Shown here: positions 15,363-62,402 of the stretch, one piece after another | How the letters are laid out: each line of letters opens with the position of its first letter | Numbering within the stretch: the first letter of the stretch is position 1 | From: a virus | IMG/VR virus record: IMGVR_UViG_3300047510_001159 | Span: 1-64,000 of that record | Strand: one strand, 5' to 3' | DNA length: 64,000 nucleotides | Program-made: the position numbers and the translations under genes | Notes under the pieces: generated by a model | Database searches by the model: none | What the model saw: the letters and a program-made list of their open reading frames with translations, nothing else | Told to the model about the DNA's origin: nothing

Positions 15363-18256
15363 TACCTGAATTAAATTTACCCATAAGTGTAGCTGGTAGA
15401 GATGGTTTTTATTGGTGGATTGGTCAGGTACAAAATTACACTGATCCCAAAGATAAGTCCATTGGCAACAGATACAAAGTAAGAATTATTGGTCAGCATG
15501 TAAAGAGTTGTAGCGCGATTGCTACGGCTGATTTGCCATGGGCAGTTGTGATGATGCCAGTAACGCATCCTATTCCTGCTGGAAATAATAATTTTACTTC
15601 TATAAAATTACAAGGTGGAGATTGGGTAATTGGATTCTTTATGGATGGTGCCAGAGGGCAGCAACCAGTGATCATGGGTCAAATACCCCAAACAACAAAG
15701 GCAAATGCCAACACGGGACCAACAACTAATACTGAAGATACTTGCATTCCGTATCAAAGAGTAGTCAATGTAAAAAATCCATATAGACAGATTCCAAATA
15801 ACGCTACTTCTACTGGTACACAACCATCTTCACCAGATACAACAAACACCGATAAAAATCCTACTAACTCTCCATTGAACGGCGCTGGGGCGAAGGAGAA
15901 TAGTAATAATAACATGGCGGGTAGATATGGTTGTGCTAACGTGTCCGCAAAACCATGTGAAACAGATAATGGAACTGTTCAATCTAGATTTGAGCAGATT
16001 CTCAGCGAAGCGATGCGAGATATACAACAAAGTGGTGGGAATTTAGGAGCAAATATATTAAGTCCTTATAGTGGAGTGTTGTTGGATTATGCTGCTACGG
16101 CACAAGGATATGTAGAAAGGTGCTTTGGTGTAGCAAAAGCATGGATAACATCATTGAAGGGAGACCTATTAAGTTGGGTAAAAAAGGGAGTCTCCCAGTT
16201 ACTACAAAGTATTATGGGAGTCAGTGTTGATCCGACTACTGGTAAAAAAACTAAAATCGGATTGTTTGGTCAGGTTATTAATTTTTTAAATGAACAACTT
16301 AGTTTAATTAATTGTACATTTGCTGATCTAGAACTGGCTCTATTAAATCTATTGACGGATTTGATTTATAATTTTATTCTCAACACAATAAATGCAACAA
16401 CCTGTGCTCTAGAATCTTTAATCAGTGAAGTGCTGTCCGAAATCGAAGCACTATTGACAGGTATTATTAATACTATACTGGGACCACTTCAAGCATTGTT
16501 GGATATTATAGCATCTCCTTTGAATTTACTTTCAAAAGCATTGCAGTACATATTCAATTTAATTGGTCTACAATGTGCTGGTCCAAAGAATTGTACTTCA
16601 CCAGAAACCACGCAATTTTGTAAGAACTCCAAGAAAAAACCAGGGCAAGATGATTTTGATACATTAGATAGATTAATATCTCAATTATCAGCTGATGATG
16701 GTGGGGTAGTATTGCAATCTGGTTGTCCAGGAACAACGTCACTGCCTTGCCCACCATTAACGACTGCAAATGTAACTGGTGGAGTGCCGAATCCAATTTC
16801 TTATACTGGATCATCACCAACAACACCAATACCAACGACCCCACCTTTCATGGGATCAATACTTGCTGGTATACAAACAGGATCACCTTCATCAAATACA
16901 ACAGAGAGTGGAGGAACTGCTACCTTTAATGTTAGATTAACATATGCACCAACCGCAAATGTTAATATTGATGTATCAGTAGCTGGTGCTTCAGAAGGTA
17001 CTGCATCACCTTCTTCTTTGATATTTACTCCATCAAATTGGTACACTGATCAAGTTATTACTGCTACTGGTGTGGATGATAGTGTAGCAGATGGCAATCA
17101 ATTGTATAGAGTTTTATTAGTTGCTTCTTCAACTGACACAAATTATCAATCAGTTAGTGCAGAAGTAGAATTAACAAATGAAGATGATGAAACTTCTTCT
17201 GCCATAACTATTCCAGTAAATGAAACTCTTCTTTCAGAATCTTCAATTAAATTAAAAGGATCTTCTAACAATGAGATTAATGTGCAATCTATTGACACAT
17301 ATAATTTTTCTGTGAATGGATATGTAAAATTTGAGGGAAATAATTTAATCACTTCTTATGAAATTGATTTAAATCCAACACCGATTAGCACTGCAATATC
17401 CTATACATTAACTTCCAACAAAACATCAGTTACTCCTGGTCAAAGCATAACATTTACTCTCACTGCATCAAATGGCATCGTGCCTAATGGTACGAAATTT
17501 AATTATACTATGTTCGGATTGATTTTACCTAGTGATTTTTCTGATGGAACTTTGACAGGTGACATGACGATGACTAATAATGTTGCTTCAAAAACTATTA
17601 CTATTTCCGATACCACTAGTGTTAGTAGTGTAGCAGATGTTTTATTCAGTGTCAACTATAGATCAGTGACATTCTCTATCGTTAATCCTTCTCCAACAAT
17701 TCCAACAACTCCAACAACAATTCCGACATTTAAAGCTCCTGTCTTGGGTACTCCAGAAGTAGATAACAATGGGCAAATTATAGATATTCCTATTTTAGAT
17801 CCTGGCGATCGTTATCTTTATCCACCAATTATTAATATCTATGGAGATGGCATAGGTGCATTTGCTAGCGCCGTTCTTGATGGTGATGGATTCATAAGAA
17901 AGGTGAAAGTTGAGAGGTCTGGAAGAGGATATACTCCATCTAGAAAAAATACTAATTGTTATATCGATGGATTTAATTTGATAAAACCAGGAATTGGATA
18001 CACTGAAGAACCTAAGATTTTTATTGATGGTGATTCGAATATCGTCAGAGCAAAAATTGATAACGGATTTGTTGTCGGTTTAGAAGTCATCGATAAAACA
18101 AAAATTTATAATAGTTTCCCCAAGGTTAGAGTGGTTGGTAATGGTGCTGGGGCAATTATTATGCCTACTTTCAATTGCACAGATACTCCTACATATAATA
18201 AGTATGTCAGTGAGGTTGCACCTTCTGGCGTTGATTCAGTTGTTGATTGTCCATAG
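15359..18256 (+). CDS. 5: Baseplate hub/spike protein, gp5-like with Ig-like repeats
   Basis: A 965-residue protein. Residues 1-115 form a gp5/VgrG-type OB-fold domain (FYWWIGQVQNYTDP, YKVRIIGQHV, LPWAVVMMPVTHP, GDWVIGFFMDG). I see no lysozyme domain like that of T4 gp5. A long hydrophobic helical region follows (about 230-410), then a Calx-beta/Ig-like segment around residues 520-610 (GGTATFNVRLTYAPTANVNI), a second beta domain, and near the end repeats of GxGYTxxP type (SGRGYTPSRK, GIGYTEEPKI). Ig-like and beta repeats are common on virion surfaces. Overlaps the CP12-like gene by 4 bases. Confidence 0.75.
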   Translation: MIPELNLPISVAGRDGFYWWIGQVQNYTDPKDKSIGNRYKVRIIGQHVKSCSAIATADLPWAVVMMPVTHPIPAGNNNFTSIKLQGGDWVIGFFMDGARGQQPVIMGQIPQTTKANANTGPTTNTEDTCIPYQRVVNVKNPYRQIPNNATSTGTQPSSPDTTNTDKNPTNSPLNGAGAKENSNNNMAGRYGCANVSAKPCETDNGTVQSRFEQILSEAMRDIQQSGGNLGANILSPYSGVLLDYAATAQGYVERCFGVAKAWITSLKGDLLSWVKKGVSQLLQSIMGVSVDPTTGKKTKIGLFGQVINFLNEQLSLINCTFADLELALLNLLTDLIYNFILNTINATTCALESLISEVLSEIEALLTGIINTILGPLQALLDIIASPLNLLSKALQYIFNLIGLQCAGPKNCTSPETTQFCKNSKKKPGQDDFDTLDRLISQLSADDGGVVLQSGCPGTTSLPCPPLTTANVTGGVPNPISYTGSSPTTPIPTTPPFMGSILAGIQTGSPSSNTTESGGTATFNVRLTYAPTANVNIDVSVAGASEGTASPSSLIFTPSNWYTDQVITATGVDDSVADGNQLYRVLLVASSTDTNYQSVSAEVELTNEDDETSSAITIPVNETLLSESSIKLKGSSNNEINVQSIDTYNFSVNGYVKFEGNNLITSYEIDLNPTPISTAISYTLTSNKTSVTPGQSITFTLTASNGIVPNGTKFNYTMFGLILPSDFSDGTLTGDMTMTNNVASKTITISDTTSVSSVADVLFSVNYRSVTFSIVNPSPTIPTTPTTIPTFKAPVLGTPEVDNNGQIIDIPILDPGDRYLYPPIINIYGDGIGAFASAVLDGDGFIRKVKVERSGRGYTPSRKNTNCYIDGFNLIKPGIGYTEEPKIFIDGDSNIVRAKIDNGFVVGLEVIDKTKIYNSFPKVRVVGNGAGAIIMPTFNCTDTPTYNKYVSEVAPSGVDSVVDCP

Positions 18257-18264
18257 GAATAAAA

Positions 18265-19821
18265 ATGGCTAGTAATTACTTAGAATTAGTAGATGCGATA
18301 AAAAATTCTGGGGCAACATTTCTCACACCCACTTCTAATTTTGGTTGTGGTGTTACTAGTGTTACTGATCAATCAAACGAAATTGATATTGATGGATTAG
18401 ACCTTTCTGCAGTCAACGATGCTTTAGCAGAAACTCAAGCAGCAATCGATGCTTTCGGCTCTGATGTCATGAGTGTTCTCACTGACATTGGAGCGTGGAT
18501 TCCGCCGTTAAATGATCTTGCTAATCAAACTACTGCTGCCGATGCTACTGCTTCGACAGTTGCAGACATTGACGATGACACCGCAACTACAGAATCTCAT
18601 GCTGCTGACGATTCTTCTACTGTAAGAGGAAATAATCAATTTGGTGGTAGTTATTGTGGAACTACTTGGGGTGATGAGTCTCACTGGGCTAAAGATACTG
18701 ATGGTAGTTTTGTATTCTCTGCTGCTAAATCTCCCAAGAATAATCATAAGGGTGGTGCATTTTGGGTAAACTCTGCTGGTCCTACAGTTTATAGAGTTGG
18801 TGAGTGCATGGTGATTGATGTAAGGAATCAGAATAAAATAAATTCTGGTGAAAATCCTTTATCATCCGAGTCAACTGGAACTGCATTTTCTCTATATGTT
18901 ATTGGCGATGTAAGAATCGAAAATACTGGCGATCTCAGTGTAAAAACTGAGGGAAATATTGAGTTGAGTGCTGGTAAAAAACTAACTCTTAAATCTGCAG
19001 AACAAGTAGAAATTTTAGCAGGTGCTGGACCCAAAACAGGTGCGGGAGCAACTGATAAAAGTTATGGTGGAACGATCACCATGAAGACAGGTAAGTTAGA
19101 AATTGATAAATCTTCTGAACAAACCTTAGTTGAATCTGATTACAAAAAAATCAACGGAGAAGTCGTATTTGCTATGACAAATCCAGCTGGTAACTTTGGA
19201 ATTACCTCTGCTGGATCTATGGAAATCAAAGTTACTGGTGATATGTATGAAATCATTGGTGGCAGAAAGAAAACTGAAGTCATGGCAAACATGGGAGCAT
19301 CTTTGCCTGCATTAGGAGATGCTTTATTAGCTGGACAACAATCTGGATATGTTATCACAACTGGACCAACATTCAAACCAGTTGGTGTTGGAATCCCAAC
19401 TCACGCAGAAGGATTGCCAGGAGTCGAAGGAACAATTTATCCAGTATTAAGTATTAACTCTGGTACAAAAATTCAAAATCCTTTGGTTGGTGGTTTGCGT
19501 GTTAGAGCACTGGCAGGAGACATAGACATGTCAACTCTGTCTGGAAATATTTTGATGCATAGTGAACTAGGTGTTTTGGGTTCTATCTTAAAGAAAGCAC
19601 CAACTGATAAATATGCTCCTAAAGCTACAGCACTTACCGCTAAGTTGCCAGGTGTTTATGTTGGGTCAAAAGCAACTAGAGTTGATGTTTTCAGTACTGT
19701 ACAAACAGTTATGTCTGTTACACCATCTGGTGCTCCATCACCGAAACCAGTTGATAAATCAATTGACATCAATTCAGTTACCTTAGAGATCAAAAATATC
19801 TCAGGAATTTATTTAAACTAA
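18265..19821 (+). CDS. Baseplate spike-like protein with beta-helix repeats
   Basis: A 518-residue protein. ATG 18265 is preferred over a TTG at 18247 because AGGA lies just before it. Residues 120-320 show alternating beta strands of the gp5-C/VgrG spike kind: VIGDVRIENTGDLSVKTEGN, IELSAGKKLTLKSAEQVEIL, GGTITMKTGKLEIDK, GSMEIKVTGDMYEIIGG. It probably forms the membrane-piercing needle or a stem next to the gp5-like hub. It is the last gene of the hub operon. Confidence 0.65.
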   Translation: MASNYLELVDAIKNSGATFLTPTSNFGCGVTSVTDQSNEIDIDGLDLSAVNDALAETQAAIDAFGSDVMSVLTDIGAWIPPLNDLANQTTAADATASTVADIDDDTATTESHAADDSSTVRGNNQFGGSYCGTTWGDESHWAKDTDGSFVFSAAKSPKNNHKGGAFWVNSAGPTVYRVGECMVIDVRNQNKINSGENPLSSESTGTAFSLYVIGDVRIENTGDLSVKTEGNIELSAGKKLTLKSAEQVEILAGAGPKTGAGATDKSYGGTITMKTGKLEIDKSSEQTLVESDYKKINGEVVFAMTNPAGNFGITSAGSMEIKVTGDMYEIIGGRKKTEVMANMGASLPALGDALLAGQQSGYVITTGPTFKPVGVGIPTHAEGLPGVEGTIYPVLSINSGTKIQNPLVGGLRVRALAGDIDMSTLSGNILMHSELGVLGSILKKAPTDKYAPKATALTAKLPGVYVGSKATRVDVFSTVQTVMSVTPSGAPSPKPVDKSIDINSVTLEIKNISGIYLN

Positions 19822-52407: not shown

Positions 52408-53098
52408 TATTCGATTCTATAATATCATTGATGGTGTCGCAGCAAACTATCCAATCGTATCAGCACAATCAATTCAAAGATCTTGGTTACAACAACCACA
52501 TCAGCAGTATAAACAACTGACAAAAGATCTTCATACTAAAAAATGCCCATTCACTCAACGTATAGGTAATATTGCTAAGTGCCCTGGTATTCGCTCAATG
52601 ATGAATACAGGATGGATATTACCTACACCTACAGATATTCGTGTCGTCACTGACTCTAATCATCAGTCGCCAATCGTTAATATAGCAGCAACAGATTCTC
52701 CTATACAATTCTCCCTACATCCACCAGAATTATTTTCTCAATATCACTCAACACCTCACTCATCATTATCATCCATATTTAAATTTGATTTTGGATGGAG
52801 AGTACAAGCACCTAAAGATATTGTATTTCTTATTACTCATGTACACTATAATAATGAAGTGAGGTTTACTCATACAACTGGTATCCTTGATCCTCAAGAA
52901 TCATCATCTCTTAATGTACAATTCTTTTGGCATGTACTTGATGGTGTTACTCTTATACCAGTGGGTACACCAATGATGCAAATCATACCAATGAAACGAT
53001 CATTAGAGTATAATGTAGTAGTAGATGAAGAGTATAGTCTGAGTGATATACAAAGGTTGCGGAATGAAACATTTAAGTTACAGTCTACGTTTTATTGA
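52397..53098 (+). CDS. Conserved phage protein, function unknown
   Basis: A 233-residue protein, larger than its neighbours. NIAKCPGIRSMMNTGWILPT, then TDIRV (about residues 58-85), FKFDFGWRVQAPKDIVFLIT, then VQFFWHVLDGVTLIPVGTPM. The CPG...NTGW...P.DI...PxGTPxxQ.IP layout recalls beta-sandwich proteins with DUF numbers in phages (DUF6065-like, tentative). It ends the tightly packed run before the repeat-rich region. Confidence 0.65.
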   Translation: MKRNIRFYNIIDGVAANYPIVSAQSIQRSWLQQPHQQYKQLTKDLHTKKCPFTQRIGNIAKCPGIRSMMNTGWILPTPTDIRVVTDSNHQSPIVNIAATDSPIQFSLHPPELFSQYHSTPHSSLSSIFKFDFGWRVQAPKDIVFLITHVHYNNEVRFTHTTGILDPQESSSLNVQFFWHVLDGVTLIPVGTPMMQIIPMKRSLEYNVVVDEEYSLSDIQRLRNETFKLQSTFY

Positions 53099-53535
53099 GT
53101 TGTCTAGGTGCTGGTATAGTCAGGTTGTGGAAAAACCTGTGGAAAACTATTAGATTAAGAAAGGTTTAATTAAATATAGTTTGGTGATGTATAACGATAG
53201 TGTTATAGTGTGTAGAAATAGTATAATGAACTCAGAAACCTTCGTATATGCTACGAAATGCTCTGAGTTGTTGTAGTCTTAGCACGCGACCTAACGAGTT
53301 GTCAAGCTTTGTGTGGAAACCCAAAAATCTCAGAAATTTCAAAAATCTCGGAAATCTCAAAAGCGTCAAAACCGAGAATTCTGTATTTCCAAGGGTTTTC
53401 GAGTTTTTTAGAAATCTTAATATTTAAGTTTTTTAAGTTTTTGAGATTTCTGAGAATTTTGAGAAACATTATAATTATAATAACATATTATAATATAATA
53501 CTATTGTTATATAAGTTAAACTAATCAAAAAACCC
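53099..53535. other. Repeat-rich AT-rich non-coding region, candidate replication origin (left part)
   Basis: No convincing gene lies here. It holds two direct TGTGGAAAA boxes (53126 and 53138; reverse of TTTTCCACA), a perfect TATAAT at 53222, a compound hairpin at 53229-53269, iterated CTCAGAAATTTC-like units in both orientations (53329-53463) and a nearly pure A/T stretch (53466-53525). TTTTCCACA is the DnaA-box form reported for Synechococcus. Together these fit an origin with an unwinding element. Confidence 0.5.
53229..53269 (+). ncRNA. Compound hairpin, possible small RNA
   Basis: Outer stem AACTCAGA/TCTGAGTT (53229-53236 and 53262-53269) encloses inner stem TTCGTA/TACGAA (53241-53246, 53252-53257) with loop TATGC. 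A TATAAT sits just upstream, but I see no matching -35. Confidence 0.3.
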
Positions 53536-53564
53536 TTGACAAACTCAGAAGACCATAGTATTAT
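53536..53564 (+). promoter_or_regulatory. Sigma70-type promoter
   Basis: TTGACA (53536-53541), 17 bp, TATTAT (53559-53564); followed by GTAATCGA at 53571. Confidence 0.8.
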
Positions 53565-53591
53565 TACTAAGTAATCGATCAAATCAATCGA

Positions 53592-53837
53592 ATGTCTGTT
53601 AAAAACTACCAAGAAGTTCCTAGTTCTGCTATCAAAAACATTGTTATTGATACTGAAAAGAACACGGTTTCTATTCAGTATAATAGCAATTCCGACAAAT
53701 CTTATACTTACAGCACTGAAGATGCTGTCGGATTTGATAGTCAGTTGCTTGCTGAATTCGACTCTGAGGATATCTCGGTGGGTCGATTCATCAACCAGAG
53801 TGTCAACGAAGGCACTCTGAAACTGCTGGTTGACTGA
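53592..53837 (+). CDS. KTSC-like hypothetical protein
   Basis: An 81-residue protein: VPSSAIKNIVIDTEKNTVSI, then QYNSNSDKSYTYS resembles the small KTSC-type beta fold (SSxIxxxxYD...L.VxF.ngxxY.Y). Fold assignment tentative. Gene sits between the two origin-like repeat regions. Confidence 0.55.
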   Translation: MSVKNYQEVPSSAIKNIVIDTEKNTVSIQYNSNSDKSYTYSTEDAVGFDSQLLAEFDSEDISVGRFINQSVNEGTLKLLVD

Positions 53838-53934
53838 CCCTAGCACACAATAAATATGTTTGTCAAGGGGTGATTGCACCAATTTGGTTGTCAATATCCC
53901 TTACAGACGATTGTAGACACCTTAGAACAAACAA

Positions 53935-54099
53935 ATGGCACGTAGTAAGAACTCCAACAAAAACGATTTCTATCAAGATTTCGACGAGTTTGATGAACAA
54001 GTAGTAGAGAATACGTATGGCGTTAAGATTAAGAATCTCGGACGCACTCCTAAGAAGCAGAAAAGAATTAAGTTTGATGGAGATAATATTGAATGGTAA
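53935..54099 (+). CDS. Small conserved protein
   Basis: A 54-residue protein with acidic middle (NDFYQDFDEFDEQVVENTYG) and a basic end (RTPKKQKRIKFDGDNIEW). Function unknown. Confidence 0.55.
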   Translation: MARSKNSNKNDFYQDFDEFDEQVVENTYGVKIKNLGRTPKKQKRIKFDGDNIEW

Positions 54100-54107
54100 G
54101 TAAATAG

Positions 54108-54171
54108 TTTTCCACAGATATACTAAAACCTGTGGAAAACTTTCAATAGTTTTCCACAACCCTGTGGAAAA
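54108..54171. repeat. Cluster of four TTTTCCACA boxes (DnaA-box-like)
   Basis: Boxes at 54108-54116 (+), 54131-54139 (-), 54150-54158 (+) and 54163-54171 (-) form two inverted pairs; the second pair is an 11-bp perfect stem with a 4-base centre (54149-54173 region). No T-run follows, so a terminator is unlikely. Fits DnaA binding. Confidence 0.55.
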
Positions 54172-54226
54172 CTCAACGATAAGCCCCCCTGATCGAACCC
54201 ATAAGCAAAGGTGATGGTTAGGGGGG

Positions 54227-54255
54227 TTGACTTTTGCCCTGATCGGCTCCATACT
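54227..54255 (+). promoter_or_regulatory. Promoter plus conserved leader (copy 1)
   Basis: TTGACT (54227-54232), 17 bp, CATACT (54250-54255), then AACCAAGTCAACAG. First of ten related -10/leader blocks. Confidence 0.75.
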
Positions 54256-54279
54256 AACCAAGTCAACAGCAAACGACCC

Positions 54280-54594
54280 ATGCGCCTCATCGAACGCCAA
54301 ATGAACGCCGCTATCACCAACGGCAAAGATTGGCAGAAAGATAACACCAAAGTTGTCACCAATGATGGTGTGAGCGAAGTCTTCCTGCATGGTAACAAAA
54401 TCGCTGAGATTGGCGAGTGCTTTGTTACTCTTTTTGATGGTGGTTGGCAATCTAACACCACCAAGTCTCGCCTGAATGCTATTCTCTGTGAGCATGGTAT
54501 CCCTGGTGAGCGTGTGTTTCAGAAGAAATTTGAGTGGTTTGTGAGTCAGGAAGGCGGTGCAATTCCTTTCTTTTCTGGAATGCGCCTGAACTGA
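54280..54594 (+). CDS. Hypothetical protein
   Basis: A 104-residue protein (MRLIERQMNAAITNGKDWQK, then KVVTNDGVSEVFLHGNKIAE and KSRLNAILCEHGIPGERVFQ). A conserved-looking phage early protein with a beta sheet and a helical end. ATG 54280 is chosen from the promoter position. Confidence 0.7.
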   Translation: MRLIERQMNAAITNGKDWQKDNTKVVTNDGVSEVFLHGNKIAEIGECFVTLFDGGWQSNTTKSRLNAILCEHGIPGERVFQKKFEWFVSQEGGAIPFFSGMRLN

Positions 54595-54595
54595 A

Positions 54596-54678
54596 GATTC
54601 TGAGGTTTCTGAGAATTTTAACAAACTTTGAATTCTCAGAAACCTTGAAAACTTAAAATTCTCAGAAACCTCAGAATC
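54596..54678. repeat. 26-bp perfect inverted repeat
   Basis: Arms at 54596-54621 and 54653-54678 are exact reverse complements; the 31-base spacer holds a third copy of the AATTCTCAGAAACCTT unit (54631-54646). Starts 2 bases after the gene stop. Could be a terminator, structured RNA or origin element. Confidence 0.75.
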
Positions 54679-54698
54679 TTTGAATTTTAAGAAATTTA

Positions 54699-54726
54699 AA
54701 ATTTATAACTTTAAAGTTATAAATTT
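54699..54726. repeat. 28-bp perfect A/T palindrome
   Basis: Fourteen-base arms around a TTT/AAA centre, rich in A and T, 25 bases before the next ATG. Possible operator or origin element. Confidence 0.7.
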
Positions 54727-54750
54727 AATTAATCCTCAAGGAGTTAACTA

Positions 54751-54921: not shown

Positions 54922-55059
54922 ATGACCAAAGAAGTAATGCTTTCCCTGCTCAATCGTGCCGCTGATGGTAACGAACTGATGGCAGTTCTTGATACTCTGA
55001 CCGAAGATTCGGCAGATGAGTATCAGAATTCTCCTACCCTTGAGACTATCGAGTTCTGA
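54922..55059 (+). CDS. Small conserved protein
   Basis: A 45-residue acidic helical protein (KEVMLSLLNRAADGNELMAV, ending SPTLETIEF). A frequent small cyanophage early protein pattern; function unknown. Confidence 0.6.
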   Translation: MTKEVMLSLLNRAADGNELMAVLDTLTEDSADEYQNSPTLETIEF

Positions 55060-55131
55060 TATCATTGTCAAGTGACCCTGTGCCAGTTCAACAAGTGGCA
55101 CAGGGTATCACCATCTGCCCACATTTGATGC

Positions 55132-55150
55132 AATACTAACAGAGTCAAAC
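55132..55150 (+). promoter_or_regulatory. Conserved -10/leader block (copy 2)
   Basis: AATACT then AACAGAGTCAAAC. A 10-bp hairpin (CCCTGTGCCA/TGGCACAGGG, 55076-55105) lies upstream; no clear -35. Confidence 0.5.
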
Positions 55151-55157
55151 AAATCCG

Positions 55158-55283
55158 ATGCCTGAATCTTACAATTTCACTGGTGACGCTGTAACTTACC
55201 TCGGGTTCGTTGGTGTCATCTCCACCGCTATCATTGTGATTTCGGTGTTCAAATCTTTCTACAATTCTCCCCTGAACAAATGA
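55158..55283 (+). CDS. Small membrane protein
   Basis: A 41-residue protein with one membrane helix (YLGFVGVISTAIIVISVFKS). Overlaps the next ATG by 4 bases. Confidence 0.6.
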   Translation: MPESYNFTGDAVTYLGFVGVISTAIIVISVFKSFYNSPLNK

Positions 55284-55456
55284 TGGATCGCAAAGAACTT
55301 CAGGATCAACTTGTCCAGCAAATGTTGGATGACATGGATCTCAAAACTATGATGTGTCTCTGCTACGATTATCTCATGGAGGGATACGATAAGTATAACG
55401 ATGAAGAACTGAATGAAGAGGTTCAGCAATACTATCCTGAACTACTGGAAGTATAA
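55280..55456 (+). CDS. Hypothetical acidic protein
   Basis: A 58-residue helical acidic protein (ELQDQLVQQMLDDMDLKTMM). Coupled to the membrane peptide before it. The following 55457-55572 is GC-rich, non-coding, with four CTAG sites. Confidence 0.6.
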   Translation: MMDRKELQDQLVQQMLDDMDLKTMMCLCYDYLMEGYDKYNDEELNEEVQQYYPELLEV

Positions 55457-55572
55457 CAAACTGGGCGGCCGCTTCGCTGCCCCCTTCCCTCCCCTCCCGC
55501 CCTCTAGGTTAGTCGCCTAGGGGGCGTCTGTCTAGGGGGCAGTGGACACTAGCACAGGTGGCACAGACCCCC

Positions 55573-55601
55573 TTGCGATGCCCCCCGATCGGTGCAATAC
55601 T
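55573..55601 (+). promoter_or_regulatory. Promoter plus conserved leader (copy 3)
   Basis: TTGCGA (55573-55578), 17 bp, AATACT (55596-55601) preceded by TGC, then AAAGCATACCAAACGAAACG. Confidence 0.65.
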
Positions 55602-55629
55602 AAAGCATACCAAACGAAACGGAGATCAA

Positions 55630-55863
55630 ATGGAAACGCCTCGCGCCTACGCTGTCATCGGCGGATGGGATTATGAAGGTGAAGACTTCTCTTCCCTGCG
55701 TCTGTTCGATTATCACTCCGCCGCTGTGGCATACATGAAAGAATTGGAAGTTCAGGGATACGATTACTCTAAGTGTGAGATGCGTTGGATTGAACAGATC
55801 CCCTCGCTTGAGGAGATTCAAGCGAAGGCGCGACTCGCTGAGCGTCTGGCGGTGCTGCCCTGA
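55630..55863 (+). CDS. Hypothetical protein
   Basis: A 77-residue protein (YAVIGGWDYEGEDFSSLRLF, then DYHSAAVAYMKELEVQGYDY). ATG 55630 is chosen because it follows the promoter and leader. Not recognised. Confidence 0.65.
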   Translation: METPRAYAVIGGWDYEGEDFSSLRLFDYHSAAVAYMKELEVQGYDYSKCEMRWIEQIPSLEEIQAKARLAERLAVLP

Positions 55864-55912
55864 CCAGTTGGCAAGGTGGCACAAGGGGGACCAGATCCCC
55901 CGCCTGACCCTG

Positions 55913-55935
55913 TAGACTAAAGCATACCAAACAAA
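55913..55935 (+). promoter_or_regulatory. Conserved -10/leader block (copy 4)
   Basis: GACCCTG directly before TAGACT (55913-55918), then AAAGCATACCAAACAAACG. No -35 at 17 bp. Confidence 0.5.
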
Positions 55936-55944
55936 CGAGACCGA

Positions 55945-56112
55945 ATGACCCGCTTCAACCCCAACGTCTATGAACAGCAGATCCTCGCCAAGGGGCGCGA
56001 CCTGCCCGCCCCTGCTAAGTTCGATGGCAAGGTGCCCGCTCGCTTCGCTGACCGCTTCAAAACCTATGATGAGTATCAGGAGGCGATGGCAGACTTCCTG
56101 AACGGGATGTGA
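55945..56112 (+). CDS. Small hypothetical protein
   Basis: A 55-residue protein (RFNPNVYEQQILAKGRDLPA, ending EAMADFLNGM). Not recognised. Confidence 0.6.
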   Translation: MTRFNPNVYEQQILAKGRDLPAPAKFDGKVPARFADRFKTYDEYQEAMADFLNGM

Positions 56113-56137
56113 CAATCCAACAAGTGGCACAGACCTC

Positions 56138-56166
56138 TTGACTTCCTCCCCAATCCCTGCCATACT
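56138..56166 (+). promoter_or_regulatory. Promoter plus conserved leader (copy 5)
   Basis: TTGACT (56138-56143), 17 bp, CATACT (56161-56166), then AACAGAGTCAACCAAAC. Confidence 0.75.
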
Positions 56167-56190
56167 AACAGAGTCAACCAAACAAACGAC

Positions 56191-56619
56191 ATGAGCATCA
56201 CCTTGACTGCAAACTACAAAGAAGTTCTCTCCGCTGCTGCTGTTGAGAAGATCGATGAATTGATCGATGAGAACTATGCTCTGGATGATATGCTGGAGTT
56301 CATCGACACCTACAATGAGAACGATTTTGTCTCCTATTATGAAGAGTATTGCCGCTGTGGTGAAGCGATCGGATATGATGCCGTTGATGCTTTGATTGGT
56401 GAAATGGGTTGCGTTTCTGACATCGAAGGATGTGATGATCGCTTCCGTGGTTGGTATGAATCTGAGGCAGACTTCGCTGAAGAATACTATAGCGATCTGC
56501 ACGATGTTCCCTGTGCTTTGGTTGTAGATTGGCAGGCAACCTACGATTCCTCCCTGCGTTACGATTTCACCTGCTGTGAAGTGAAGTATCGTCAGGTTGC
56601 TGTGTTCAGCGACTATTAG
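56191..56619 (+). CDS. ArdA-like antirestriction protein
   Basis: A 142-residue, very acidic protein. RGWYESEADFAEEYYSDLHD, then VPCALVVDWQATYDSSLRYD matches the ArdA ending (DFAEEYxED...LPxxLxxYfDYExyaRDL). ArdA proteins imitate DNA and block type I restriction enzymes. The acid-rich N terminus fits DNA mimicry. Own promoter near the methylase/endonuclease region suggests early anti-defence expression. Confidence 0.65.
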   Translation: MSITLTANYKEVLSAAAVEKIDELIDENYALDDMLEFIDTYNENDFVSYYEEYCRCGEAIGYDAVDALIGEMGCVSDIEGCDDRFRGWYESEADFAEEYYSDLHDVPCALVVDWQATYDSSLRYDFTCCEVKYRQVAVFSDY

Positions 56620-56670
56620 GACACCTGAGGGGGTGGCACACGCTGCCCCCAGCATCGACCGCCGACCCTC

Positions 56671-56690
56671 TAGACTAACAGAGTCAACCA
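56671..56690 (+). promoter_or_regulatory. Conserved -10/leader block (copy 6)
   Basis: GACCCTC then TAGACT (56671-56676) and AACAGAGTCAACCA. Confidence 0.5.
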
Positions 56691-56703
56691 AACAACCCAA
56701 CCC

Positions 56704-56946
56704 ATGCTGAACTTCGCCATCGATCACCTGCCTGTGTTCATCAACGTGCAACGCCCTAGCAGCGCCTGTGAGCGTGTGATCCTGTCGCCCCTGACCCGTC
56801 GCGCCATCGTGCAATGGCACTCTGGCAGCGTCAGCGGTCACGACTGCCGCCGCCGTGACATGCTGCGCCTGATGATGCCTGGCACCTCGCTGGGACAGTG
56901 GGCAAACCGCACCCTGCTGCAGCGTCACGAGACCATCTCCATCTAG
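56704..56946 (+). CDS. Hypothetical basic protein
   Basis: An 80-residue, Arg/His-rich protein (LTRRAIVQWHSGSVSGHDCR, ending SLGQWANRTLLQRHETISI). It may fold as a small beta-plus-helix domain; not recognised. Its stop lies in the next leader block. Confidence 0.6.
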   Translation: MLNFAIDHLPVFINVQRPSSACERVILSPLTRRAIVQWHSGSVSGHDCRRRDMLRLMMPGTSLGQWANRTLLQRHETISI

Positions 56947-56953
56947 ACTAACA
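56944..56953 (+). promoter_or_regulatory. Conserved -10/leader block (copy 7, short)
   Basis: TAGACT (56944-56949) then AACA. The next ATG follows at once, so this copy is shortened. Confidence 0.35.
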
Positions 56954-56955
56954 GC

Positions 56956-57150
56956 ATGAAAGAAAAGACCTTCACCCTCTCGCTTCGTGATCGCTGCCTC
57001 GCCCTCGCTGAGGCACAGGCATGGGAGATCAATGGGGACATCGACGCCATCGACCCCGATGATCTCGAATCCTGCCTCGCTGGTCTGACCGAATCCAACC
57101 TGCAGGAGACGGCAGGCGAACTGGCACACCTCGCCGCCTGGTGCAACTGA
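56956..57150 (+). CDS. Hypothetical acidic helical protein
   Basis: A 64-residue protein (LRDRCLALAEAQAWEINGDI, ending GELAHLAAWCN). Not recognised. Confidence 0.6.
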   Translation: MKEKTFTLSLRDRCLALAEAQAWEINGDIDAIDPDDLESCLAGLTESNLQETAGELAHLAAWCN

Positions 57151-57158
57151 TCATCCTC

Positions 57159-57180
57159 TAGACTAACAGAGTCAACCAAA
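57159..57180 (+). promoter_or_regulatory. Conserved -10/leader block (copy 8)
   Basis: TAGACT (57159-57164) then AACAGAGTCAACCAAA. Confidence 0.5.
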
Positions 57181-57190
57181 CGAGACGACC

Positions 57191-57352
57191 ATGAGAATCG
57201 AAGTTCGCTACCAGACCCCCTACAATGCCTGTGAGTGGCGGTCGCAGTGGTTCCCCACCCTGGCAGAGGCAGAGCGTATGGTAGACTTCTACCGCTCCTG
57301 TGGTTCTCCCTCTCACATCGCCCCTTCCTCCCTCGCTCAGTTCGATCGCTGA
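57191..57352 (+). CDS. Small hypothetical protein
   Basis: A 53-residue protein (YQTPYNACEWRSQWFPTLAE, then RMVDFYRSCGSPS). Not recognised. Confidence 0.6.
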   Translation: MRIEVRYQTPYNACEWRSQWFPTLAEAERMVDFYRSCGSPSHIAPSSLAQFDR

Positions 57353-57359
57353 TCCTAGC

Positions 57360-57500
57360 ATGGCAAACACCCTTCGCCTCGCCCTCGCTGCTGCTCTGCT
57401 GCTGATGTTCTCTCAGACCGCTGGCGCCATCCTGCAGACTGCCCAGACCCTTGACGCTGTGACAGCAGAGAAGGTGGCACAGATCGCCTCGCTGGACTGA
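57360..57500 (+). CDS. Small secreted or membrane peptide
   Basis: A 46-residue peptide with a typical signal sequence (TLRLALAAALLLMFSQTAGA) and a short polar tail. Probably exported or membrane-anchored. Confidence 0.55.
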   Translation: MANTLRLALAAALLLMFSQTAGAILQTAQTLDAVTAEKVAQIASLD

Positions 57501-57511
57501 CCCCGACCCTG

Positions 57512-57531
57512 TAGACTAAGATCAATCAAAC
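57512..57531 (+). promoter_or_regulatory. Conserved -10/leader block (copy 9)
   Basis: GACCCTG then TAGACT (57512-57517) and AAGATCAATCAAAC. Confidence 0.45.
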
Positions 57532-57541
57532 GAAACGAACC

Positions 57542-57691
57542 ATGGAATTCGACACCTGCTTCACCGAGATCCAAGATGCCCCTGGCGAGATCTTCGACAT
57601 GGACTTCGACGATCGCTGGGATGCTGACGACTTCGACCGCCGCCGTATGGAGCGGGACGGTTGGCAGACTGCCTGCTGGGATGGGCGCTGA
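57542..57691 (+). CDS. Small acidic protein
   Basis: A 49-residue Asp/Trp-rich protein (DMDFDDRWDADDFDRRRMER). Not recognised. Confidence 0.6.
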   Translation: MEFDTCFTEIQDAPGEIFDMDFDDRWDADDFDRRRMERDGWQTACWDGR

Positions 57692-57704
57692 GGCGCTGAC
57701 CCTG

Positions 57705-57725
57705 TAGACTAACCACATCAGCAAC
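57705..57725 (+). promoter_or_regulatory. Conserved -10/leader block (copy 10)
   Basis: GACCCTG then TAGACT (57705-57710) and AACCACATCAGCAAC. Confidence 0.45.
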
Positions 57726-57731
57726 CAACCA

Positions 57732-57929
57732 ATGCGCTTCCCCCTCGCCCAGTGCTCTGACCTCGCCACCCGCCAGATTCGGTGGATCTCCCGCCACGAT
57801 CAACTGAACAACGGCAGTCGCCCCTCTCAGTTCATCCATTGGGGACTGCCTGCCTCTGTCCTCGCCGCCCAGTATGCCGAGACCCATCATGATGAGGCGA
57901 TCGCCAAACTCCCCACATTTGAAGACTGA
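57732..57929 (+). CDS. Hypothetical protein
   Basis: A 65-residue protein (LATRQIRWISRHDQLNNGSR, then PSQFIHWGLPASVLAAQYAE). Not recognised. Confidence 0.6.
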   Translation: MRFPLAQCSDLATRQIRWISRHDQLNNGSRPSQFIHWGLPASVLAAQYAETHHDEAIAKLPTFED

Positions 57930-57953
57930 CCCGACCCATCATCCTATCACACC

Positions 57954-58163
57954 ATGCCCTCACCTCTCAAGTGGAAGCAAGCGGAGCGAGATCTGAAAGC
58001 GAGCGGCGCCGTGCTCAAGCGAACGACAGCATCGCATCAGATCTGGAATCACCCCGCCTGGCAGACTGACATCATCCTGCCGACGCATGGCAGCAAGGGG
58101 CGCAGCACCATCTCCCCTGGCATGTCCGCCGTGATCAGGAAGGCACTCGCTGCCCTCCCCTGA
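57954..58163 (+). CDS. HicA-like toxin (mRNA interferase fold)
   Basis: A 69-residue protein with the HicA double-stranded-RNA-binding-like layout: KQAERDLKASGAVLKRTTAS, then HQIWNHP with the catalytic-type His, IILPTHGSKGRSTIS and a closing helix VIRKALAAL. HicA proteins cleave mRNA and normally pair with HicB. No HicB-like gene is visible nearby, so it may be solitary or act on host translation. A GC-rich hairpin spans its stop. Confidence 0.7.
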   Translation: MPSPLKWKQAERDLKASGAVLKRTTASHQIWNHPAWQTDIILPTHGSKGRSTISPGMSAVIRKALAALP

Positions 58164-58631: not shown

Positions 58632-58832
58632 ATGATAATGCATAAAGTATACGAAACAACGGTAGAATACAATGATGACTTTCAGGAGTATTTCGTAACA
58701 CTCCCCGAAGACCTATTAGAAAGTGTTGGATGGGAAGAGGGCGATGTGCTAGAATGGAGTGTGAACAAAGATGGCACTATTTTAGTTGAACGAGTTGACG
58801 AGGAATTTGCAAATGACCGAGAAGAAGATTAA
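58632..58832 (+). CDS. AbrB-like swapped-hairpin protein
   Basis: A 66-residue protein: YFVTLPEDLLESVGWEEGDV, then LEWSVNKDGTILVERV matches the AbrB/MazE-type swapped-hairpin motif (xxLPxxLLxxLGxxxGDxLxxxxxxDGxIxLxR). Such proteins bind DNA as regulators or antitoxins. ATG 58638 is a possible start. The end overlaps the next gene by 20 bases. Confidence 0.65.
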   Translation: MIMHKVYETTVEYNDDFQEYFVTLPEDLLESVGWEEGDVLEWSVNKDGTILVERVDEEFANDREED

Positions 58833-59145
58833 TTATCAAATTGTTAACAAGGAAGGTGAAGTGGTTGACGATCAAACTTTCACTGATTATGATAAGTTAG
58901 CTGATCACATGCTAGAGTTAGCAGACAAGTGGTATCAGGGTATATACAGCACTGATGACAAAGTAAATATTTCAACTTTTGATGAAACTGGAAATGTAAT
59001 TTATGAAGACTCCTCATCCTTTGGAAGCAACATCGAGTCTACCGAAAGTCTCGAAGACAACCTGCGAGATCTCTATGGTGACACTAGAACAGCAGGTAAA
59101 GGATTTGGAGATTCAACTAAAGAATCTAGAAAGAACTCTAAGTAA
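58813..59145 (+). CDS. Hypothetical acidic protein
   Basis: A 110-residue protein (KINYQIVNKEGEVVDDQTFT, then STDDKVNISTFDETGNVIYE), beta-rich with a disordered Ser/Thr end. Overlaps the next coiled-coil gene by 71 bases. Confidence 0.6.
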   Translation: MTEKKINYQIVNKEGEVVDDQTFTDYDKLADHMLELADKWYQGIYSTDDKVNISTFDETGNVIYEDSSSFGSNIESTESLEDNLRDLYGDTRTAGKGFGDSTKESRKNSK

Positions 59146-59290
59146 AATAGAGTTACGTTTAAGTAAATTACCAGATCCGTTTGTGATTTATTATCGTCCG
59201 CCGCATAAGGAGGACTATGAAAAATTAAATTTGACACTGGACGATCTGTATGCTAGAATAAATAGGATCGAAAGTAATTTCGACCAATAA
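59075..59290 (+). CDS. Coiled-coil protein
   Basis: A 71-residue heptad protein (LEQQVKDLEIQLKNLERTLS, then YEKLNLTLDDLYARINRIES) starting at ATG 59075. One-base overlap with the PAAR gene. Confidence 0.55.
   Translation: MVTLEQQVKDLEIQLKNLERTLSKIELRLSKLPDPFVIYYRPPHKEDYEKLNLTLDDLYARINRIESNFDQ
59232..59260 (+). promoter_or_regulatory. Extended -10 promoter before PAAR gene
   Basis: TTGACA (59232-59237), 17 bp, TAGAAT (59255-59260) preceded by TGC. Confidence 0.65.
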
Positions 59291-59664
59291 TGTCCAACAT
59301 TGCATTCAGTGCATCAATCGATACCATTTCCGTTGGGGGTATCAATTGTAGATTTCAACCTTCCCCATTAGGAACTGAAATCGCTGCTCCTAATGTATTT
59401 TCTGGTAAAAAACCATTTAGATTTGCTGAACATAAACTTTTGCCAGTACCAGTGATTGGCGAACCGATTATTCCAATTCTTCCGTGTTTAACCAGTGGTG
59501 TTAGGACATATATTGCCAAGTCAAATCCTAATGTATTCATTAGTAAGTTGCAACCTGTAATATCAGGAGATGTTACGGTGATAGAGGGGACAGAAAGACC
59601 GATTATTCTCGGTCCATTTACTGAAGATCAAGTGTTTATTGGATTAAAAACTAAAGCAAAGTGA
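59290..59664 (+). CDS. PAAR-like spike tip protein
   Basis: A 124-residue protein with repeated beta turns (PNVFISKLQPVISGDVTVIE, then GTERPIILGPFTEDQV) typical of PAAR-type proteins. In T4 the PAAR protein gp5.4 caps the central spike. Its position before gp25 in the wedge operon fits a baseplate part. The whole sequence is short and beta-rich. Confidence 0.7.
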   Translation: MSNIAFSASIDTISVGGINCRFQPSPLGTEIAAPNVFSGKKPFRFAEHKLLPVPVIGEPIIPILPCLTSGVRTYIAKSNPNVFISKLQPVISGDVTVIEGTERPIILGPFTEDQVFIGLKTKAK

Positions 59665-59674
59665 GGTAAAAGTT

Positions 59675-59821
59675 ATGGCAAAAGCAAAAGTTGGTTTGAA
59701 TAAGACGAATTACGTGCCTGGAAAGCCCAAGCTTACTAGTCAAGGGCGCTCAAAGAATACAAATCTTGCTGCAACGAGTCGAAATGGACGCAAAAAGCGT
59801 TATCGCGGGCAGGGTTCGTGA
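59675..59821 (+). CDS. Small basic conserved cyanophage protein
   Basis: A 48-residue, strongly basic protein (KAKVGLNKTNYVPGKPKLTS, ending NGRKKRYRGQGS). A similar small basic protein is commonly found near gp25 in cyanophages; nucleic-acid binding is possible from charge. Followed by a terminator. Confidence 0.7.
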   Translation: MAKAKVGLNKTNYVPGKPKLTSQGRSKNTNLAATSRNGRKKRYRGQGS

Positions 59822-59849
59822 AAATTTCGAAGGAATACAGATAATTTTT

Positions 59850-59889
59850 GCGGTATTTTGCCTATTTTTGGTGAAATACCGCTTTTTTT
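59850..59889 (+). terminator. Rho-independent terminator
   Basis: GCGGTATTT (59850-59858) pairs with AAATACCGC (59874-59882), followed by seven Ts. Separates the PAAR unit from the wedge genes. Confidence 0.88.
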
Positions 59890-59944
59890 CGGGATAGCAA
59901 CCCCGTAAAAAGTTCTGTTTTAATCAAATTTTGAGGAAAAACAG

Positions 59945-60202: not shown

Positions 60203-60598
60203 ATGCCTGTAAGTAGGTCGTTTAAAGACATCAGTATTACGTTTGCAAAACATCCAGTCACTGATGATTTATTGGTGACTAAAAATTTTACTGCTATTAA
60301 ACAATCTATTCAAAATTTAATCACAACTGCTCCTGGAGAGAGATTTTTCAATCCAAACATTGGTAGCAGGATCACTGATTTGTTATTTGAACCATTAGAC
60401 TTTATTAATGCCGATGCTGTAAAGAGTGAAATTGAATATACTATCAATGCATTCGAGCCGAGAGTAAGGTTAAAAAATATAATTGCTGAAGAAAATTATG
60501 ATGCTAATGGATATGACATTGAAATAGAATATCAAGTGGTTGGGTTGCCAGAACAATACCAGACAATCGAGTTATTTCTAGAAAGAACCAGAGCATAA
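60203..60598 (+). CDS. 25: Baseplate wedge protein gp25
   Basis: A 131-residue protein of the gp25/lysozyme-like wedge family: SRSFKDISITFAKHPVTDDL, then ITTAPGERFFNPNIGSRITD, LLFEP and a C-terminal YDIEIEYQVVG. gp25 binds gp6 and anchors the wedge, and is shared with R-pyocins and type VI secretion (TssE). Length is right for the family. The late promoters lie very close upstream, so the second would give a nearly leaderless message. Confidence 0.93.
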   Translation: MPVSRSFKDISITFAKHPVTDDLLVTKNFTAIKQSIQNLITTAPGERFFNPNIGSRITDLLFEPLDFINADAVKSEIEYTINAFEPRVRLKNIIAEENYDANGYDIEIEYQVVGLPEQYQTIELFLERTRA

Positions 60599-60602
60599 AG
60601 AA

Positions 60603-62402
60603 ATGCCATACAATCAGTTAACAAATTTAGATTATTTTGATATTAAAGTTGCTCTCAGAGATTATTTGAGAGCGAATTCGGATTTTACTGATTATGATTT
60701 TGAGGGTTCTACATTAGGGCAATTACTGGACGTATTAGCATATAATACCTATTATACGTCTTTTAACGCCAACATGGTTGTTAATGAGACATTTTTAGAT
60801 TCTGCTACTCTTCGTGATAATGTAGTTGCTATAGCGAAACAACTAGGATATACACCAAGATCATCTGTTGCTTCATCTGCTGCTGTATCTTGTTCATTGA
60901 CTTTACAAGGAACAACATTACCAAGCACAGTATTCTTAAGAAGAGGAAATGCGTTTCTAACAAACGTAGATGAAAAATTATATCAATATGTTATTTTGGA
61001 TGATGTGCAGGCAAATGTATTGCCAGATAATACAGTATCATTCAATAATTTAAAAATTTACGAAGGAACTTTTGTTACCAATACTTACACAGTAGGCGGC
61101 GGAGTGTTTAATGTAATATTAAACAACGCAAATATTGATGTCAGCACGATTAGAGTTAGAGTATTTGATTCTCCATCGGCATCTATCTACGAAAGATATG
61201 TTCTTTCCGACAATATTTTAAACACTACTCCATCATCTCCAGTATTCTTCATCAATGAAATTGAAGATGAAAATTACAAGTTAATTTTTGGCGATGGCGT
61301 ATTTGGCAAAAAATTAACCACTGGGCAAGTTGTTGAAGTAAGTTACTTAGTTACCAATGCAGATGCAACCAACGGAGCGTCTATATTTAATTATTCTGGT
61401 GTAGTTAGTGATGTTAGTGGAAATAGTAATTTCATAGTTCAAGTTAACAACATTACTACTATTGCAAAAGCATTTGGCGGCAGTGGCATAGAAAGCATTG
61501 ATAGTATAAAAATCAATGCACCAGCAATGTATGGAGCACAGAATCGTGCCGTAACTGCTGTAGACTATTCTGCTATTGTTAAAAGAGTATATCCAAATAT
61601 AGCAGATATTATTGCTTATGGTGGAGAGAATGCAGATCCTCCCGAATATGGTAAAGTTAAAATTTCTATAAAACCAACCAATTCAGCATATATTTCTTCA
61701 TACACCAAAAAAATTATTTTGGATGAATTAAGAAAATATTCGGTAGCATCTGTTATTCCAGAAATTGTTGATGCTTCTATTATTTACGTTGAGTTGTACA
61801 GCAACATTTTCTACAACCAATCTGTCACTAATTTAAGTGCAGATTCTTTAAAAACAAAGATTATTGAAAATATCGCAAAATATATTGCAAGTAGTGATAC
61901 TGAGAAATTTGGTGGGAAGTTTAGATATAGTAAAATAGTGGGTGTAGTTGATAGTTCTGATAGATCTATAAAATCTAACTTAACTACAATTCTCATGAGA
62001 AAGGATTTTTATCCTTCGTTAAATAATAATGCATATTATGAATTGTGTTTTAATAATCCATTTTTGAATGATTCGACTACCAATGCCATGTCTTCTACTG
62101 GATTTGTAGTTCAGAAATATCCTTCTTATACGGTGTATTTGGAAGATAGATCTGGAAAAATAGTTCTATACAGATTAGACTCACAGACTGGTGAAAAAAT
62201 TGTTCTGAATCAAAATCAAGGAATAATTAATTATGTCACTGGAGAAATTCAAGTATTTGATTTAAATATTATTAAAGGAACCTTCTCCGATAATAGAATC
62301 GAAATTCGTGTAAAACCAGAATATAATGACATTATTGCTAAGAGAGAAATCTTCTTAGATATTGATATTGATCATAGTTCATTTACCCTCATTCAAGAGT
62401 AG
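60603..62402 (+). CDS. 6: Baseplate wedge protein gp6
   Basis: A 599-residue protein that begins NQLTNLDYFDIKVALRDYLR, followed by DFEGSTLGQLLDVLAYNTYY, TSFNANMV and ETFLDSATLRDNVVAIAKQL, GYTPRS: the typical gp6/baseplate-J start. Further on are GAQNRAVTAVDYSAIVKRVY and a strand-rich C terminus. Gp6 forms the ring joining wedges. Close to the usual length (T4 gp6 660 aa). It follows gp25 by 4 bases. Confidence 0.92.
   Translation: MPYNQLTNLDYFDIKVALRDYLRANSDFTDYDFEGSTLGQLLDVLAYNTYYTSFNANMVVNETFLDSATLRDNVVAIAKQLGYTPRSSVASSAAVSCSLTLQGTTLPSTVFLRRGNAFLTNVDEKLYQYVILDDVQANVLPDNTVSFNNLKIYEGTFVTNTYTVGGGVFNVILNNANIDVSTIRVRVFDSPSASIYERYVLSDNILNTTPSSPVFFINEIEDENYKLIFGDGVFGKKLTTGQVVEVSYLVTNADATNGASIFNYSGVVSDVSGNSNFIVQVNNITTIAKAFGGSGIESIDSIKINAPAMYGAQNRAVTAVDYSAIVKRVYPNIADIIAYGGENADPPEYGKVKISIKPTNSAYISSYTKKIILDELRKYSVASVIPEIVDASIIYVELYSNIFYNQSVTNLSADSLKTKIIENIAKYIASSDTEKFGGKFRYSKIVGVVDSSDRSIKSNLTTILMRKDFYPSLNNNAYYELCFNNPFLNDSTTNAMSSTGFVVQKYPSYTVYLEDRSGKIVLYRLDSQTGEKIVLNQNQGIINYVTGEIQVFDLNIIKGTFSDNRIEIRVKPEYNDIIAKREIFLDIDIDHSSFTLIQE

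Follow-up and report, generated by a model that had tools for sequence, protein, structure and literature searches.

Does a cluster of cyanobacterial DnaA-type boxes in a phage genome mark an origin of replication, and would such an origin use the DnaA protein of the host? The question is raised by a 1.65-kb region in the window, the first 64 kb of the 103,714-base IMG/VR record IMGVR_UViG_3300047510_001159 (a contig of ~103.7 kb), which an earlier note had put forward as a candidate origin. Genes of the contig match gp32, gp53, gp48, gp26, gp5, gp6, gp8, gp13, gp14, and gp15 of S-PM2, which identifies it as a T4-like cyanophage. The region is located between the gp5 and gp6 homologues, which are separated by ~44 kb of other genes, and holds only small genes, as had been described (81, 54, and 104 aa; Table 1). 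The gene for Gp96, which flanks cluster B in the contig, is the commonest gene adjoining the boxes. All neighbors are small phage genes and dnaN is not adjacent; an Rfam search of the window yielded two tRNAs only.

Box clusters and weak DNA between the gp5 and gp6 homologues

The six TTTTCCACA boxes listed in the earlier note were all recovered at their positions (clusters A and B, Table 1). The whole record contains eight such boxes, with two outside the locus (35362 and 86667), so that 6 of the 8 lie within 1.05 kb (1,046 bp). Dinucleotide shuffles of the window gave a mean of 1.4 boxes and none of 100 shuffles reached 7; when eight sites were placed at random in 2 million trials, six within 1,046 bp never occurred. 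The rarity of the 9-mer, named beforehand as a check, was borne out by exact counts over whole genomes (records up to 252 kb), with 0–10 boxes each. A cluster of TTTTCCACA DnaA boxes, one of the marks of a cyanobacterial oriC, is present at the locus.

The stretch at 53466–53525, described as almost pure A/T, consists of A or T at 54 of 60 positions. In a nearest-neighbor stability analysis the minimum at the locus, located between the two box clusters, ranks first in the record with both 50- and 100-bp windows; the corresponding rank in relatives is 7–10 in S-PM2 and lower in Syn9. The iterated CTCAGAAA units were likewise confirmed, as all six copies in the record fall in the locus (53231, 53329, 53447 on the minus strand, 54606 on the minus strand, 54635, and 54661). 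The inverted repeat was found as well, following the 104-aa gene, but its arms are 28 nt and 100% complementary (54594–54621 and 54653–54680), not 26 bp; the 28-bp palindrome is found at 54699–54726. Opposed arrays of degenerate AAATCTCAAAA units were observed at 53322–53463 and 54594–54680 of the window and at about 19500 in S-PM2. Such arrays are densest at the locus in both genomes, and are perhaps part of the unwinding region.

Table 1. Features of the candidate origin region and its anchor genes (positions in the window).
Feature	Position	Strand	Remarks
gp5 homologue	15380–16786		
Box cluster A	53126–53146	-	Two TTTTCCACA boxes (53126, 53138) 12 bp apart (TGTGGAAAAaccTGTGGAAAA)
A/T-rich stretch	53147–53188		Directly after cluster A boxes (ATTAAGAAAGGTTTAATTAAATATAGTTTGGTG); position and character conserved
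Element E	53269–53306	-	Plus-strand reading TGTTGTAGTCTTAGCACGCGACCTAACGAGTTGTCAAG
Degenerate 9-bp units, AAATCTCAg/a	53322–53463		Two opposed arrays forming an imperfect inverted repeat
DNA of lowest stability in the record	53414–53525		Candidate unwinding element
Early promoter, TTGACA-N17-TATTAT	53536–53564	+	Before 81-aa gene; promoter scan
Small gene	53592–53837	+	81 aa, phrog_4357
Small gene	53935–54099	+	54 aa, without family
Box cluster B	54108–54171		Four boxes: + 54108, - 54131, + 54150, - 54163
G+C-rich inverted repeat (CCCCCC ... GGGGGG)	54182–54228		Between cluster B and next promoter; read from sequence
Promoter-like, TTGACT-N17-CATACT	54227–54255	+	Before Gp96 gene; promoter scan
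Gp96 gene	54280–54594	+	104 aa, PF23790 Kyano_Gp96, T4-like GC 637
Second CTCAGAAA array	54594–54726		Includes the inverted repeat (28 nt, perfect) and the palindrome (28 bp)
gp6	60591–62399	+	Baseplate wedge; downstream anchor gene

Outside the locus, positions 55000–58000 of the window have a [G + C] content of 50–59%, against ~38% for the genome, and carry small genes; this is probably acquired DNA. At 56191–56619 is a gene akin to anti-restriction proteins of phages (phrog_36653); its match to ArdA is weak (E 0.012).

Conservation and helical phasing of the locus

Using Gp96 as bait, 80 loci were fetched from IMG/VR, many of which show box clusters around the gene. A near relative (L013, 90% protein identity) has kept two clusters ~1 kb apart, with drift in the number and orientation of the boxes in cluster A. 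The direct 12-bp spacing of cluster A recurs in relatives, and the layout of cluster B, with inverted pairs at distances of 23 and 13 bp, is the same in L012, L013, L024, and L026. Among named phages, the locus holds 3 of the 8 exact boxes of S-PM2 (19231–19264), 2 of 4 in Syn9 (52565–52597), 4 of 7 in both Syn1 (58713–59757) and S-RIM44 (58893–59937), and 2 of 3 in Syn19 and in S-SM2. S-SSM7 and P-RSM4 have a single box within ~4 kb of Gp96, and no such cluster of exact boxes was found in P-SSM2, P-SSM4, and P-HM1.

We also scanned IMG/VR without regard to genes for inverted box pairs (TTTTCCACA-N3-20-TGTGGAAAA). Among the 120 matches listed, 92 have S-PM2-type genes, and 79 of these 92 listed stretches hold Gp96 or the gp25-gp6 neighborhood. 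A scan with the reversed word returned S-PM2-type genes in 4 of 120 stretches, but controls only for the cyanophage locus and not for pure chance, because it matched another conserved element. That element, the palindromic ACACCTTTT-N10-AAAAGGTGT, is mostly 28 nt long and was seen in many non-cyanophages (L412–L491 and further loci). Six other loci (L139, L141, L150, L152, L176, and L187) show a single inverted TTTTCCACA pair whose start-to-start distance is always 27 bp; they are mostly G+C-rich, lack S-PM2-type genes and probably form an unrelated family. As judged from these sequence comparisons, T4-like cyanophages of marine and freshwater hosts share a conserved locus, present once in each genome and at the same place.

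The spacing of the boxes was analyzed on deduplicated pairs from relatives. Direct pairs are 11–12, 21–22, 31–34, or 42–44 bp apart, and convergent pairs 12–14, 23–24, 34, or 44 bp. This corresponds to a strong 10.5-bp periodicity (R = 0.76 for 54 direct and 0.71 for 128 convergent pairs), the P values of which are overstated since the relatives are not independent; several distinct box arrangements share one phase. Only 3 of the 128 convergent pairs fall at 15–20 bp, a spacing permitted by the scan, versus 25 at 12–14 bp and 81 at 21–25 bp. In the flanks of the boxes, AG is favored before and G/A after. Judged from these distances, the phasing is as expected for cooperatively bound proteins that touch on one face of the helix.

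Element E and the comparison with T4 origins

Between cluster A and the weakest DNA we identified a further element, absent from the earlier note and here called element E (53269–53306), which reads GTTGTnGTCTTAGCnCGC...TGTCAA and is near-unique. On the minus strand it presents TTGACA (53305–53300), 18 nt, and TAAGAC (53281–53276), pointing toward cluster A. In relatives it appears as TGTTGTnGTCTTAGCnCGCnnnCTAn, usually followed by TGTCAA, and mostly 30–150 nt past the boxes, after an A-rich stretch. A matrix for element E scores 32.9 at the locus of the contig, 30.8 in S-PM2, and 25.1 in Syn9, with next-best scores elsewhere of 8.5, 14.3, and 13.8, respectively. When the viral collection was scanned for the exact element without regard to boxes, 66 loci were found; S-PM2-type genes accompany 59 of them, and 44 have an exact box at most 400 nt upstream. 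The orientation count (104 versus 8) is biased, because the matrix was trained on matches downstream of boxes; neither the uniqueness within whole genomes nor the exact scan made without regard to boxes is affected by this training.

The sequences with element E fall mainly into two classes. In class 1 (48 of 93), the minus strand reads TTGAC(A/T)-N17/18-TAAG(A/C)C, with TTGAC 21–22 nt from GCTAAG. In class 2 (25 of 93), TTGAC lies 33–36 nt from GCTAAG, 11–14 nt further out, and most of the class 2 sequences listed have a good -10 (TATAAT, TAGAAT, or TACAAT) at 17–18 nt. The class 1 -10 (TAAGAC or TAAGCC) has 2–3 of 6 consensus bases, and a generic promoter scan did not call element E. By its spacing, element E looks like an early-type sigma-70 promoter that would fire into the A-rich stretch and on toward the boxes, opposing the surrounding genes.

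The element is not tied to the boxes. S-RSM4, S-B43, and a third locus (L382) have kept the A-rich stretch and element E, and the genomes of S-RSM4 and S-B43 contain zero TTTTCCACA. In all three, a different repeated word (ATTGAGAATCAAT; repeats of TTGAGAATCAAT, palindromic ATTGAnnnTCAAT) replaces the boxes before element E; this exchange may reflect a swap of initiator or regulator. Several further loci with element E have neither TTTTCCACA boxes nor TTGAGAATCAAT repeats. Element E and the A-rich stretch are therefore more widespread than the DnaA-type boxes, and a use of DnaA is not universal, since such phages retain the element without TTTTCCACA.

This setting resembles oriE of T4. In the T4 record, oriE is located upstream of gene 6, where gene 5 ends, and fires in the minus direction; its primer RNA is complementary to the gene 5 transcript, and repEA and repEB are small antisense ORFs inside gene 5. 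Its early-mode promoter is accompanied by 12-nt repeats at even spacing, whose role is unproven (PMC3016281). The cyanophage locus is likewise flanked by genes 5 and 6 and has a predicted antisense promoter of the early mode that would not need a phage transcription factor; short repeats at a spacing of 12 or 24 nt are a further point of likeness. In the cyanophage contig ~44 kb of other genes lie between gp5 and gp6. The T4 repeats are found within the gene 5 coding sequence, and they are unrelated to TTTTCCACA; the likeness is thus claimed in working and position, not as homology of the repeats. With the R-loop origins oriF and oriG, which have a promoter followed by easily unwound DNA where the transcript can stay hybridized (PMC3016281), the locus would share this arrangement through its predicted promoter. 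Those, in contrast, are fired from MotA-dependent middle promoters and have no box clusters described; cyanomyoviruses lack motA (PMC2984593). For Syn9, a single theta origin was predicted (Weigele 2007, as summarized in the review PMC2984593), and the locus is single-copy in that genome (52565–52691).

The earlier note had named an unchanged skew at the locus as evidence against an origin. The GC skew, expected to change sign at a bidirectional (theta) origin, does not do so here in the contig, S-PM2, or Syn9. As oriA and oriC of T4 are likewise found away from skew switches (PMC3016281), this result weakens the assignment as an origin but does not refute it, and mapping of the origin by GC skew was uninformative.

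The box binder and the function of the locus

Most cyanobacteria are reported to have TTTTCCACA as their consensus DnaA box, and boxes of this kind are bound by the box-binding domain of Cyanothece DnaA (PMC4674748). The box form named in the earlier note agrees with the cyanobacterial consensus; its attribution to Synechococcus oriC does not extend to WH7803, the host of S-PM2, where exact TTTTCCACA is absent from oriC. Upstream of dnaN, this strain has only the degenerate boxes TTTTCCACG and TTTTCCCCA, followed by CTATTACGG, and the 9-mer is not enriched in its genome (14 versus 15 for the reversed word). Mostly degenerate boxes were also found in the other host oriC regions sampled. In picocyanobacteria (L312–L318 and L306), degenerate DnaA-like boxes 9 bp apart upstream of dnaN are followed by CTACTACTA-like repeats reminiscent of DnaA-trios, seen by eye in several hosts. 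Next to the phage boxes, a trio-like repeat within 40 nt was found in only 1 of 162 loci. The phage locus thus shares with cyanobacterial oriC the clustered TTTTCCACA boxes by A/T-rich DNA (PMC4674748), and differs from it in box layout and in lacking a dnaN neighbor and DnaA-trios.

A search of the phage record with Pfam Bac_DnaA_C found no DnaA C-terminal DNA-binding domain. A phage-encoded DnaA was rejected on this basis, and DnaA of the host would be needed; it is a plausible candidate for the binder of the boxes, and their helical phasing fits such a role. A missing helicase loader, considered as a reason for such a need, proved wrong, since gp59 is annotated in several cyanophages.

Host DnaA might also bind the boxes without starting phage replication, either titrating the protein to stop host initiation, as datA does in E. 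coli, or switching local early promoters. The match to the cyanobacterial box, the phased clusters among early-type promoters and the fact that a sink requires neither skew change nor trios favor this explanation. Loci of the datA type, too, are DnaA box clusters off the chromosome origin. We nevertheless consider it unlikely: there are only 2–7 exact boxes per locus, their distance to the promoter is variable, and neither element E nor the fixed spacing of its promoter-like motifs is explained. Unlike at a datA-type locus, the boxes of the phage go together with very weak DNA and a promoter-like element. Similarly improbable, in our judgment, is that another protein, encoded by the phage or the host, uses the boxes as operators on the element E promoter, which would then produce a regulatory antisense or small RNA instead of a primer. 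The replacement by ATTGAGAATCAAT at the box position would fit co-evolution of a binder with its sites, and the lack of enrichment in WH7803 is in line with it. This is hard to reconcile with the exact identity of the 9-mer to the cyanobacterial DnaA box, and no conserved RNA structure was found in the predicted antisense transcript. Gp96 was rejected as the box binder: its predicted model (pLDDT 92) has no significant match among solved structures and no recognizable DNA-binding fold, and its look-alikes are predicted proteins from phages that are not related.

Stems can form from inverted box pairs, and two weak terminator-like calls were obtained on the minus strand at cluster B, which could indicate RNA hairpins in a packaging, recombination, or transcription-termination site. 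Many clusters, though, consist of direct repeats unable to form hairpins (Syn1, S-RIM44, and L071), T runs are absent after most pairs, and helical phasing is a signature of DNA binding; this explanation appears very improbable.

The reading that we prefer, at about even odds, is that T4-like cyanophages have at this locus a conserved module for the origin of replication, in which host DnaA probably acts together with a transcript primer. The interpretation as an origin in the earlier note is strengthened by the conserved position, the phasing, the weakest DNA, the single copy and the oriE-like setting; as a plain cyanobacterial oriC it is weakened by the unchanged skew, the missing trios, the lack of exact TTTTCCACA in the oriC of WH7803, and the other boxes of S-RSM4-type phages. 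At such an origin, host RNA polymerase would fire the minus-strand promoter-like element E soon after infection, and the transcript would run leftward into the A/T-rich DNA beside cluster A. There it may form an RNA-DNA hybrid with a 3′ end from which the phage polymerase would start the leading strand, in the manner of T4 origins; from this we infer the direction of the first fork. An initiator oligomer, most likely host DnaA, would assemble on the phased TTTTCCACA boxes flanking the weakest DNA, and either open it or keep it unwound so that the gp41 helicase can be loaded. More tentatively, a single origin may have joined a T4-type antisense-transcript primer to phased host DnaA boxes, with some lineages swapping the boxes and keeping the primer element, that is, a modular origin with an exchangeable initiator.

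In the literature searched, no study has located the site where these abundant marine viruses begin replication; the theta origin of Syn9 is the only prediction in the sources consulted, and no paper among them brings together DnaA boxes and replication origins in cyanophages. The locus and its element are now pinned in cultured isolates, at 19231–19350 in S-PM2, 52565–52700 in Syn9, and 58713–58810 in Syn1. If host DnaA is used, replication of these phages would be coupled to the host initiator, and perhaps to the state of the cell cycle, unlike that of T4.
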